Assembly: GCF_013912065.1 (NCBI RefSeq)
Contig: NZ_JACESA010000004.1
Coordinates: 1-64,000 of the forward strand
Length of the DNA stretch: 64,000 nucleotides
Direction: 5' to 3'
DNA from: Brevundimonas sp.
GTDB lineage: Bacteria > Pseudomonadota > Alphaproteobacteria > Caulobacterales > Caulobacteraceae
In this document: positions 11,030-63,609 of the stretch, piece by piece
Layout of the letters: each line of letters opens with the position of its first letter
Position numbering within the stretch: position 1 is the stretch's first letter
Translations under genes and position numbers: made by a program
The notes under the pieces: generated by a model
Databases searched by the model: none
Told to the model about the DNA's origin: nothing
The model's input: the letters and a program-made list of their open reading frames with translations, nothing else

Positions 11030-11057
11030 GAAGGAACACTTACAGAACATCGTCAAT

Positions 11058-11072
11058 GTTCACGGCCCGTTC
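11058..11072 (+). promoter_or_regulatory. LexA operator (SOS box) of lexA
   Basis: GTTC at 11058-11061 and GTTC at 11069-11072 are separated by seven bases, exactly the alphaproteobacterial LexA binding direct repeat. It ends 33 bases before the lexA ATG, which fits autorepression. GAACAT at 11045-11050 also mirrors the first half site as a wider palindrome. Confidence 0.85.
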
Positions 11073-11105: not shown

Positions 11106-11801
11106 ATGCTCACGCGCAAGCAGCACGAACTGCTGATGTTCATCCACGAACGGATTCAGGAGACCGGCGTCTCCCCGTCCTTCGACGAGATGAAGGAGGC
11201 GCTGGATCTGGCGTCCAAGTCGGGCATTCACCGGCTGATCACGGCGCTGGAGGAACGGGGCTTTATCCGCCGCCTCGCCCACCGCGCCCGGGCGCTGGAA
11301 GTGACCAAACTGCCCGAACAGGCGACGGCGGGCGCGCCGCGCGGCCGGGCCGGCTTCAAGCCTGACGTGATCGAGGGCGGGGGCGTCCCGCGCGCCTCGG
11401 TTTCCGCCGCCAACGACACCCGCGAGCTGCCCCTGCTGGGCAAGATCGCCGCCGGCACCCCCATCGCCGCCATCCAGCACGAGCAGGACCGACTGTCGGT
11501 GCCGGAATCCATGCTGGGCAAGGGCGACCACTATGTCCTCGAGATCGAGGGCGATTCCATGATCGAAGCCGGCATTCTGAACGGCGACCTGGTGGTGATC
11601 CGCCGGGGCGACACGGCGACCAACGGCGAGATCGTCGTCGCCCTGGTCGAGGGCGAGGAAGCCACGCTGAAACGGCTGCGCCGCAAGGGCGGCTCCATCG
11701 CCCTGGAGCCTGCCAACCGCAACTACGAGACCCGCATCTTCGGCCCCGACCAGGTCGAGGTCCAGGGCAAGCTGGTCGGCCTCATGCGCCGCTATCACTG
11801 A
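11106..11801 (+). CDS. lexA: SOS response repressor LexA
   Basis: LexA represses DNA-damage genes and self-cleaves when RecA filaments form. The 231-residue protein has an N-terminal winged helix-turn-helix ([19 protein letters not shown], then the recognition region [20 protein letters not shown]). A linker leads to the C-terminal S24 peptidase domain with the Ala-Gly cleavage site in [10 protein letters not shown], the catalytic Ser in [10 protein letters not shown] and the catalytic Lys in EEATLKRL. It is preceded by its own SOS box and lies 120 bases after trpC. It is longer than E. coli LexA (202) because of an extended linker, normal for alphaproteobacteria. It overlaps comEC tail to tail by 20 bases. 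Confidence 0.98.
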
Positions 11802-31401: not shown

Positions 31402-32343
31402 TTAGTTTCCGCCCATCATCGAGGCGACTTCGGCCGCGAAATCGGGGCCTTCGACCTTCTCGACGCCTTCACCCAGGGCCAGGCGCACGAAGCCGGCCAG
31501 GTGCAGGTTGGAGGAGCCCAGTTCCTTGGCCGAGTTGGCGACCAGCTGTTCGATGGTCACGTCCGGGTCCATGACGAACGGTTGCTTCGACAGCACCACG
31601 TCCTTCTGGAACTTGTTGATCTGGCCTTCCACGATCTTGGCGATCATGGCTTCCGGACGGCCTTCTTCCTTGGCCTTTTCGGTCAGGACGGTGCGTTCCT
31701 TCTCGATGGCGGCCGGGTCCAGGTCGTCGGTGTTCAGCGACAGCGGGGCGGTCGCGGCGACGTGCATGGCGATCTTGCGGCCCAGTTCGCGCAGAGCGGT
31801 CTTGTCGCCCTCGCCTTCCAGGGCGACCAGCACGCCGATACGGCCCACGCCCGGCGACACCGCGTTGTGGACATAGGTCGAGACGACGCCTTCCGACACC
31901 GACAGGCGGGCGGCGCGACGCAGCTGCATGTTCTCGCCGATGGTGGCGATCATGTTCGTCACTTCGTCCTGGACCGTCTTGCCGGCTTCCAGTTCTGCGC
32001 CGTGCAGGGCATCGACCGAATGGTGGTCCAGACCCAGCTGGGCGAACGACTTGGCGGCGTTCTGGAACAGTTCGTTACGGGCGACGAAGTCGGTTTCGGC
32101 GTTGAACTCGATGGCGGCGGCGACTTCGCCCTTGCCGTCTTCCTTGGACGCCACGGCGACCAGGCCTTCGGCGGCGACGCGGTCAGCCTTCTTAGCGGCC
32201 TTGGACAGGCCCTTGGCGCGCAGCCAGTCGATCGCTGCTTCGATATTGCCGTCGTTTTCGACCAGCGCCTTCTTGCAGTCCATCATGCCGACGCCCGAAC
32301 GCTCGCGAAGTTCCTTCACGAGGGCGGCAGTGATCTCGGCCAT
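31402..32343 (-). CDS. tsf: Translation elongation factor Ts
   Basis: EF-Ts is the nucleotide exchange factor of EF-Tu. The 313-residue product has the N-terminal UBA-like domain with [21 protein letters not shown] and the core domain with the EF-Tu contact [14 protein letters not shown] (the TDF motif) near residue 82. A second subdomain follows and the C-terminus is [18 protein letters not shown]. The ATG is preceded by an AAGGAG-type site. It lies 148 bases downstream of rpsB with a hairpin between. Confidence 0.98.

Positions 32344-36391: not shown

Positions 36392-36392
<1 letters not shown>
35877..36392 (-). CDS. DUF3224 domain protein with signal-like N-terminus
   Basis: The 171-residue product has a hydrophobic start (MIGALLSGILLMSPFDVSQAAAQ) and an Ala/Ser/Gln spacer, then about 130 residues of the DUF3224 type: GTFEVQITPVPP, RMQLSKTFQGGLEGRGLGEML, AYVAMERVTGTLGGRHGAFSLVHRG and a final VFHLTIADGEHRYDLEYSLPE. 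DUF3224 proteins are small beta-barrels of unknown function and are usually not exported; an inner ATG at MSHAVG (about residue 42) would give the cytosolic form. ATG 36392 shares one base with the dnaE stop, so it is probably translated with dnaE. Confidence 0.82.
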
Positions 36393-39850
<3,458 letters not shown>

Positions 39851-39978
39851 CCGTCCACTCCTTCAGCTTGACTGCAGATTAGACCCCGACTCGGTCAGCG
39901 CACCAATGGCGCCCAGCGCCTTGGCGCTAAAACAGGGTGACAAGGCGCCAAACGTGCCAAAGGCGCCGAACCTGCTTG

Positions 39979-40074
39979 TCAGACCGAGGTGACCATCAGG
40001 GCCGCCTGCCAGGCCATCCAGACGAAGCCGCCGCACGATGCAAGCGACAGCAGATCTCTCATCAAACGCGGCAT
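39979..40074 (-). CDS. sidA: SidA-like SOS-induced single-pass membrane peptide (candidate division inhibitor)
   Basis: A 31-codon ORF (ATG 40074, TGA 39981-39979) encodes a basic N-terminus (MPRLMRD) and one hydrophobic helix (about residues 8-28, including GGFVWMAWQAALMV). Upstream is a promoter TTGACG-N17-TAGAAC overlapped by two LexA boxes. In Caulobacter crescentus the SOS response induces SidA, a 29-residue inner-membrane protein that blocks division by acting on FtsW/FtsN. Size, topology and LexA control match, but I cannot align the two sequences here, so the symbol is an inference. Ribosome binding (GGGGA about 8 bases upstream) is modest. Confidence 0.72.
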   Translation of the reverse strand: MPRLMRDLLSLASCGGFVWMAWQAALMVTSV

Positions 40075-40098
40075 GGTCTTATCCCCAGGTCGATCAAT

Positions 40099-40113
40099 GT
40101 TCCTGACTTGTTC
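40099..40113. promoter_or_regulatory. LexA operator 1 (SOS box) at the sidA-like/msrA divergent region
   Basis: GTTC at 40099-40102 and GTTC at 40110-40113 are separated by exactly seven bases (CTGACTT). Its right half site overlaps the putative -10 of the minus-strand sidA-like gene, so LexA bound here would block that promoter. Confidence 0.88.
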
Positions 40114-40138
40114 TATGTTCCCTCATTGTTCTCGTCAA
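40110..40138 (-). promoter_or_regulatory. Promoter of the sidA-like gene
   Basis: On the minus strand TTGACG (40138-40133) and TAGAAC (40115-40110) are separated by 17 bases, a good sigma-70 pair for alphaproteobacteria. One LexA box fills most of the spacer and the other covers the -10. The distance from the -10 to the ATG is about 35 bases. Confidence 0.6.
40117..40131. promoter_or_regulatory. LexA operator 2 (SOS box) at the sidA-like/msrA divergent region
   Basis: GTTC at 40117-40120 and GTTC at 40128-40131 are again separated by seven bases (CCTCATT). Its start lies 18 bases from the start of operator 1, so both boxes have the same orientation and nearly two helical turns spacing. The chance of two such boxes in 33 bases is low. 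Confidence 0.88.
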
Positions 40139-40222
40139 CCCCCGTTGTTAGCCCCAGGCGGGGCAGGCTTGAAACCAATCGATCCGCCCCATCGTATGGC
40201 CTTGGAGAAAGGGAGATGTCCC

Positions 40223-40840
40223 ATGTCAAAGACCCGCACCTTCGCCACCGCCCTGGCCCTGTCGTTGATCGCCGGCCTGTCGCCGCTAGGCAGCGCCGGC
40301 GCGCAGAACCAACCCGCTACCCAGACCGCGATCTTCGCCGGCGGCTGTTTCTGGTCCGAGGAGAAGGCTTTCGACGGCCTGCCCGGCGTCTATTCGGCGG
40401 TGTCGGGCTTCGTCGGCGGCCATACGGCCAATCCGACCTATTATCAGGTGGTGCGCGGCGGAACCGGCCATATGGAGGCGGTTCAGGTGACCTTCGACCC
40501 GACCGTGGTCAGCTATCGCGCCCTGGTGGACCGCTACTGGCGCACCATCGATCCGACCGACCCGGACGGGCAGTTCTGCGACCAGGGGCCGTCGTACCGG
40601 ACGGCGGTCTTCGCCACGGCGGATCAGCGTGCGGCCGCTGTGGCCTCGCGCGACGCGGCGATGCGGGTCCTGCGCAAGAGCTTCACCACCCCGGTCGTCG
40701 GCGTCCAGCGCTTCTGGCCTGCCGGTCAGGAACACCAGGACTACGCCCGCCGCAACCACGCCCATTACGAAGCCTATCGTCAGGGCTGCCGCCGACCGCA
40801 AAGCCTGCGCGCCATCTGGGGCGACGCCGCAGTCAGCTGA
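40223..40840 (+). CDS. msrA: Exported peptide-methionine (S)-S-oxide reductase
   Basis: MsrA reduces S-methionine sulfoxide in proteins. The 205-residue product starts with a signal peptide (MSKTRTFATALALSLIAGL, cleavage probably after SAGA near residue 31), so the enzyme should work in the periplasm. The catalytic motif IFAGGCFWSEEKAF is intact, as are GFVGGHTANPTYYQV, GHMEAVQV, DPTDPDGQFCDQGPSYR and the C-terminal GQEHQDY. Later Cys residues (QFCDQG, YRQGCRRP) could serve as resolving cysteines. The start has GGGAGA upstream. Its 5' region of about 90 bases separates it from the LexA boxes. Confidence 0.95.
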   Translation: MSKTRTFATALALSLIAGLSPLGSAGAQNQPATQTAIFAGGCFWSEEKAFDGLPGVYSAVSGFVGGHTANPTYYQVVRGGTGHMEAVQVTFDPTVVSYRALVDRYWRTIDPTDPDGQFCDQGPSYRTAVFATADQRAAAVASRDAAMRVLRKSFTTPVVGVQRFWPAGQEHQDYARRNHAHYEAYRQGCRRPQSLRAIWGDAAVS

Positions 40841-62980: not shown

Positions 62981-63609
62981 CAGCCCTTAACTCCAGCCTT
63001 TTCGTCGCCGGGAAGCACGGGCGCCGGGTAGTCGGCGCCTTCCCAGGGCGACAGGAAGTCGAACGTGCGGAATTCCTGCGTCAGCTTGACCGGCTCATAG
63101 ACCACCCGCTTCTGCTCTTCGTCGTAGCGGACCTCGACGTAGCCCGTCATCGGGAAGTCCTTGCGGAGGGGGTGCCCCTCGAAACCATAGTCGGTCAGCA
63201 GCCGGCGCATGTCCGGGTGGCCCGAAAAGATCACGCCGTACATGTCGTAGGCTTCGCGCTCGAACCAGCCGGCGGACGGATAGACCTCCGACACGGTGGC
63301 GACGGGCTGGATTTCATCGGTCACGACCTTGACGCGGACGCGGGCGTTCCGGGTCAGCGACAGCAGATGATAGACGACCTCGAACCGCTCCTCGCGATCC
63401 GGATAGTCGGCGCCGCAGACGTCCAGCAGCTGCTGGAAGCCGAAACGGTCGCGCAGCGCGGTCATCACCTCGACGATCCGCTCGCGCGGCGCCAGCAGGG
63501 TCAGTTCGCCGAACGCGACCTGCGCCTCGACACCGAGCGCGCCGACCAGTTCGGCGCCCATGGGCGTCAGCGCGGCCTCGAACTGGGCCTGAACAGCCAG
63601 AGAGCTCAT
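62980..63609 (-). CDS. nuoC: NADH-quinone oxidoreductase subunit C
   Basis: NuoC is the 30-kDa peripheral-arm subunit without cofactor. The 209-residue product has [24 protein letters not shown] and the signature [42 protein letters not shown], then a short tail. ATG 63609 overlaps the nuoB stop as ATGA. The open frame upstream is a shadow of nuoB. Confidence 0.97.

Follow-up and report, generated by a model that had tools for sequence, protein, structure and literature searches.

The DNA upstream of dnaE in this Brevundimonas genome raises the question of whether a very short reading frame, set behind two apparent LexA operators, encodes the SOS-induced division inhibitor SidA. The frame lies at 39979..40074 on the minus strand of the window (the whole 64,000-nucleotide stretch analysed); it starts with ATG, runs for 31 codons, and ends in a stop codon included in these coordinates. 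Its product is the 31-residue peptide MPRLMRDLLSLASCGGFVWMAWQAALMVTSV. Caulobacter SidA is described in PMC4211646 as a 29-residue SOS inner-membrane protein that blocks division via FtsW; the same account reports two-hybrid contact with FtsN and suppressor mutations in FtsW, such as A31K or F145L, and in FtsI. Judged from its sequence and surroundings, the ORF is very probably the Brevundimonas orthologue of this protein, under the control of LexA and inhibiting the septal FtsW/FtsI/FtsN complex.

SidA proteins have about 29 residues and a single helix. The window peptide, with 31 residues, is predicted to have one transmembrane helix by both hydropathy and an AlphaFold2 model, which bears out the preliminary description of a 31-residue, one-helix ORF on the minus strand. 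The model, made from the single sequence without a membrane, consists of one helix at residues 2-29 (mean pLDDT 93.2, pTM 0.45). The best 19-residue Kyte-Doolittle mean is 1.37, against a median of 1.63 for the 121 distinct peptides of the family; the peptide is hydrophobic, not strongly so, and lies below that median. Its first ten residues have a net charge of +1 and there are no charged residues beyond them; a charge inside the hydrophobic stretch occurs in just one of the 121 distinct peptides. The predicted topology is a single inner-membrane helix with the N terminus in the cytoplasm. A Pfam search with the window peptide returned no matches.

The NCBIfam model of SidA, NF033228, aligns with residues 1-28 of the peptide (E 3e-6, 27.1 bits), short of the curated cut-off of 35 bits. 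This cut-off was treated as a naming threshold, orthology being argued from chromosomal place and conservation, and the peptide is filed as a member of the SidA lineage outside the curated bounds of the model. In the family as a whole, 153 of 249 genomes pass the cut-off, and among the 150 passing places listed (three others stand outside the list) none comes from the window's genus, which contributed 56 genomes to the set. At E <= 1 the model finds something in 240 of the 249 genomes, a count that was set aside because 7 of 14 control genomes match as well, one of them above the cut-off. The best 30 places in the family survey all belong to one genus, g22, which is taken to be Caulobacter on the basis of its scores with the SidA model.

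Since short hydrophobic peptides can match by composition, a profile was built from only the 14 distinct g22 peptides and set against shuffled sequences. With this profile the window peptide scores 20.3 bits and the best of 5000 shuffles 12.7; when 1251 stop-to-stop segments of the window are searched, sidA ranks first at 18.6 bits and the next segment scores 5.9. Alignment with three g22 peptides, however, gives identities of only 41-45%. Across 46 diverse members, 45 of which match NF033228 at E <= 1, M1 is invariant and R6, L11, S13, F17, V18, and W19 nearly so. Besides this low identity, the score under the NF033228 cut-off, and the below-median hydropathy, two features of the Brevundimonas protein speak against the assignment: position 22 is as a rule occupied by Trp, where the other genera have Cys, and the C-terminal end often extends two residues further. 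Chromosomal place agrees as well: the ORF lies upstream of dnaE, as do the sidA genes of g22, the highest-scoring genus. Sequence, length, and a dnaE neighborhood matching the loci that score best with the model all support the SidA-like identity first proposed.

These features also weigh against a different kind of SOS-induced toxic membrane peptide happening to lie here, such as a pore-former resembling TisB of E. coli. Toxins of this type depolarize the membrane and are controlled by antisense RNA. The size class is the same, and a single predicted membrane helix and an SOS operator would be expected of either, but the sequence and the chromosomal place point to SidA, making a TisB-like toxin very unlikely.

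SidA is widespread in the genus. A search of 131 Brevundimonas genomes, including the window's own, found the peptide in 129 at E <= 1, with 126 of these at E <= 4.6e-4 and 3 weak. In 398 genomes of the order, 94 match at E <= 0.01; 92 are in the window's own family, and the 2 outside it are weak. For detailed comparison 177 loci were assembled, comprising 127 from the genus (the window copy, L032, included; L053 and L133 both come from one incomplete assembly, G267), the best 30 from g22, and 20 from other genera, the last two groups having been chosen from the family survey. One locus without a dnaE match, L144, was dropped from analyses of 176 rows. Each of the 176 ORFs scored begins with ATG where expected and reaches a local alignment score of at least 80 against the window peptide or a g22 peptide. 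A second, named set consists of the best 80 of 101 confirmed loci from Brevundimonas-titled, unassigned, or otherwise named relatives; it covers largely the same genomes, and its loci were found by the core pattern LxSxxxFVW, which favors conserved copies. Pairwise dN/dS has medians of 0.28 and 0.42 for the two main Brevundimonas length classes and of 0.24 for g22, a signal of purifying selection, although the short gene and overlapping pairs make these values rough.

Of the 5 genus genomes without a strong match to the peptide, four (G310, G312, G277, and G282) also lack a match to the DnaE N terminus, and so absence of sidA there is not separable from gaps in the assemblies. The fifth, G265 (L181), has dnaE and a LexA box but no more than a degenerate-looking sidA reading frame. 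A diverged SidA lies upstream of dnaE in genus g14, of which 10 genomes were inspected (L183-L192), where a His-Asn motif replaces the N-terminal Arg pattern; an exact LexA box is present at 1 of these 10 loci. Upstream of dnaE in g17 (2 genomes) and g16 (1 genome) nothing convincing was seen, and G043, G105, and G001 gave no DnaE matches at all. A metagenome assembly titled Bordetella (L211) carries a Brevundimonas-type sidA, and its title is probably wrong.

The gene downstream on the same strand, at 36392..39850 (minus strand), we take to be dnaE, for the alpha subunit of DNA polymerase III; in C. crescentus dnaE is given as CC1926 (PMC1839093). The dnaE start codons are estimates, and therefore so are the lengths of the gaps that precede them. 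dnaE is the next gene downstream on the same strand at 176 of the 177 loci, with the window copy counted, and at 79 of 80 in the named set. The exception in both sets is Brevundimonas bacteroides (L144/L270, apparently one organism), in which contig C9 carries sidA together with the promoter and both boxes, and contig C10 carries dnaE, none being present in the 3-kb flanks of sidA. Elsewhere the two genes are separated by 19-47 bp (the 30 g22 loci) or by 19-62 bp (19 of the 20 loci from other genera; 135 bp in the remaining one).

Such close linkage could mean that the ORF serves dnaE, as a leader peptide or an upstream ORF, and is conserved for the sake of dnaE expression rather than as a membrane protein. 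However, B. bacteroides keeps the gene and its whole control region away from dnaE; in 121 genus rows the FVHL motif of DnaE lies anywhere between 49 and 475 bp beyond the sidA stop; and dN/dS under 1 indicates that the amino acids are conserved beyond the DNA. In addition, Caulobacter SidA is reported in PMC4211646 to act as a protein. For these reasons a dnaE leader, which we consider highly improbable, was rejected in favor of SidA.

The control region fits an SOS gene. A promoter, TTGACG-N17-TAGAAC, can be read directly from the sequence at 40138-40110, with its -35 hexamer TTGACG at 40133..40138 and its -10 hexamer TAGAAC at 40110..40115, both on the minus strand and both kept across the genus. 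Two LexA boxes of the form GAAC-N7-GAAC on the sidA strand overlap it. The distal box (40117..40131, minus strand; GAACAATGAGGGAAC as read on the sidA strand) fills the spacer between the hexamers. The proximal box (40099..40113, minus strand; GAACAAGTCAGGAAC on the same strand) starts within the -10 hexamer, with which it shares GAAC, and spans the expected transcript start, near 40103. The hexamers and both exact boxes, written GTTC-N7-GTTC in the preliminary description, were found as it had placed them. A stock σ70 promoter and terminator scan of 39700-40300 reported nothing; it missed the TAGAAC promoter because its rule wants T as the last base of the -10, and so the promoter call rests on hexamers conserved across the genus.

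A lone LexA box means little, since single exact boxes are common genome-wide (138, whereas the reversed pattern occurs 36 times) and the window contains no more one-mismatch boxes than chance would give (50, with 40.9 expected). Of exact boxes it has 6, compared with 1.23 expected by shuffling, and none of 100 shuffles reaches 6. Two of them, at 32059-32073 and 63580-63594, fall within ORFs of coding size and look like chance occurrences. The exact pair at 18-bp spacing occurs once in the entire 3.54-Mb genome, and the reversed pattern does not occur at all.

This tandem arrangement is conserved. Among the 126 Brevundimonas rows with dnaE, 117 carry the two boxes exactly 18 bp apart, neither with more than one mismatch, and both boxes are frequently exact (52 rows); the proximal box was picked as the best-matching site between 24 and 47 bp before the start codon, a choice that favors it, and the distal box was left unchosen. 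The other 9 rows have an exact proximal box and lack a distal box at 18 bp; one of them, L147, ends at a contig end only 42 bp upstream. When spacings from -5 to +39 are scanned, +18 yields 53 exact matches and 117 with at most one mismatch, and no other spacing yields more than 3 and 8, respectively. The hexamers TTGACG and TAGAAC are conserved alongside the boxes in the genus; in the distal box, CAAC often forms the inner half. An unselected search for boxes with at most one mismatch each finds 18-bp pairs in all 30 g22 loci and in 117 of the 126 Brevundimonas rows; of the 20 rows from other genera, 15 have such a pair with a spacing of 17 or 18 bp; in mononucleotide shuffles of the upstream DNA, the frequency of such pairs is 0.0000 to four places. 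The tandem plan therefore looks older than the genus. The g22 loci differ in detail from the window, where both boxes are exact: in all 30, each box of the 18-bp pair has one mismatch, and in 14 of the 30 a further exact box lies 64-65 bp upstream of the start. For Caulobacter, PMC12700426 puts the share of SOS promoters with a single LexA box at about 97%.

That the ORF is a chance one and the boxes belong to the divergent msrA, which starts at 40223, some 90 bp away from the distal box, has almost no probability and was rejected, being already contradicted by hexamers that face sidA, by a peptide found in 126 of 131 genus genomes behind boxes that hold their place before its start codon, and by the presence of msrA within the fetched flanks (up to 3 kb) of only 20 of the 80 named loci, so that msrA cannot be what keeps the boxes in place. 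The refuting condition set in the preliminary description, a peptide lost from relatives with boxes retained for msrA only, thus does not hold.

The boxes also fit those of the known SOS genes in this genome, two preceding lexA and one preceding recA. lexA, whose product is the predicted repressor of sidA, is at 11106..11801 on the plus strand, with its own boxes at 11034-11048 and 11058-11072. It shares the window with sidA and has a TTGACA-type promoter, its two exact boxes being 24 bp apart (11034-11072). recA, on another contig, has one exact LexA box upstream; its promoter region (L327, about 2438-2480) contains several GTTC/GAAC half-sites besides this box. The genome has two genes of the FtsW/RodA family.

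From these sequence features we infer LexA binding, induction, translation, membrane topology, and arrest of division, as follows. In an undamaged cell, LexA dimers on the two adjacent operators would cover the spacer and the -10 hexamer and silence the near-consensus promoter; a double operator would be expected to repress tightly. Upon DNA damage, RecA would trigger self-cleavage of LexA, the strong promoter would open, and the 31-residue peptide would be made; a near-consensus promoter fits strong expression once free. The peptide would then enter the inner membrane as a single helix, its basic N terminus on the cytoplasmic side, and would keep the FtsW/FtsI/FtsN septal-wall complex inactive, as SidA does in Caulobacter, until LexA returns. 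Shared action with Caulobacter SidA is suggested by a common plan: a short basic N terminus, an uncharged hydrophobic stretch, and one helix. In Caulobacter, PMC12700426 presents the sidA promoter as an early, stronger example compared with uvrA, and loss of LexA as leading to filamentation through SidA.

Linkage to dnaE raises a further point. A second dnaE promoter must exist, unless transcription reads through from further upstream, because dnaE needs to be expressed while sidA is shut. In g22, barring transcription from further upstream, this promoter would have to sit inside sidA or at its end. It is possible that SOS transcription reaches dnaE and that a dnaE promoter lies inside sidA. 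The larger proposal, that throughout the Caulobacteraceae the two genes respond to damage as one unit, with the everyday dnaE promoter inside or just after sidA, is made only tentatively, and we consider it rather unlikely. The hints toward it are the dnaE linkage itself, the 19-47 bp gaps of g22, a gap in the window without a terminator-like site, a T at codon 11, and a GANTC methylation site within sidA in g22.

The third base of codon 11 is T at 97 of 104 loci with a short distance to dnaE and at 16 of 66 with a long one (n = 170; 7 short and 50 long loci lack it), six of the 176 rows, which lacked a clear DnaE motif, having been left out of both the distance and codon-11 counts. A tree-based test of this association has 5 independent pairs on supported branches, with 1.7 going the same way and 0.0 the opposite way on average, and is not significant (median p 0.5). 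In all 30 g22 genes (L002-L031) codon 11 is CTT. CTT is a rare codon choice in GC-rich DNA. GANTC at sidA nucleotides 19-23 occurs in 30 of 30 g22 loci, 11 of 20 from other genera, and 7 of 126 from Brevundimonas, against a background of 10 in 180 g22 dnaE tiles; it is partly forced, since Glu or Asp followed by a TCN Ser is encoded there. Its rarity in Brevundimonas and the outcome of the tree test count against a dnaE promoter embedded in sidA. Synonymous-site constraint relative to dnaE gives a mixed picture, with mean percentiles of 0.37 in g22 (19 codons), 0.39 in 29-residue Brevundimonas genes (16 codons), 0.54 in 31-residue Brevundimonas genes (14 codons), and 0.68 in other genera (8 codons).

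In the window, the 128-bp gap between sidA and dnaE (39851..39978, minus strand) has no terminator-like site by the scan and a GANTC site common to close relatives. Read by eye, this gap and those of the close relatives (L032-L038) contain a conserved GA(G/T)TC followed by GTCT-ATC. This conserved stretch is a possible dnaE promoter dependent on CcrM/GcrA. At 32 of 126 Brevundimonas loci a GANTC site is present no more than 40 bp from the sidA stop. The fold of the gap is barely better than that of shuffled sequences (z -1.20; 26 of 200 shuffles are as good). If the unit is real, opening of the tandem-LexA promoter would yield a division brake and also raise the replicative polymerase, and sidA would be both a protein and a promoter. 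A literature search found no discussion of a sidA-dnaE unit; as the original 2011 description of SidA was outside that search, no priority is claimed.

Set beside known systems, the window peptide shares with the Caulobacter SidA of NF033228 a length of 29-31 residues, a basic N terminus, an S/A-L-x-S core followed by FVWM, and a single helix, and its gene shares tandem LexA-type boxes upstream and, as in the top-scoring genus g22, dnaE directly downstream. It differs from the g22 proteins in identity and in scoring below the curated cut-off. As far as their descriptions go, YneA of Bacillus and SosA of Staphylococcus, whose hosts belong to another phylum, are similar in being SOS-induced division inhibitors. 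DidA of Caulobacter, likened by its description in PMC4211646, is also a small, damage-induced membrane inhibitor of division directed at the same divisome complex; unlike SidA, it is SOS-independent, driven by DriD, and binds FtsN.

The sidA gene of Brevundimonas looks like a real gene of an already-known kind, one easily missed in annotation; a literature search turned up no paper on the Brevundimonas gene with transcript, ribosome, or phenotype data. The new details are its linkage to dnaE throughout the family and the conserved tandem operator. On sequence evidence, the FtsW-directed SOS checkpoint of Caulobacter is extended to Brevundimonas and to the greater part of the family; in Brevundimonas the gene scores under the naming cut-off now in use. 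The 121 distinct natural variants of a 29-31 residue inhibitor may provide material for mapping its contact, and the putative tandem operator, spaced at 18 bp in two genera and at 17-18 bp in most of the remaining ones sampled, would serve as a test case for how a lethal SOS gene is held tight.
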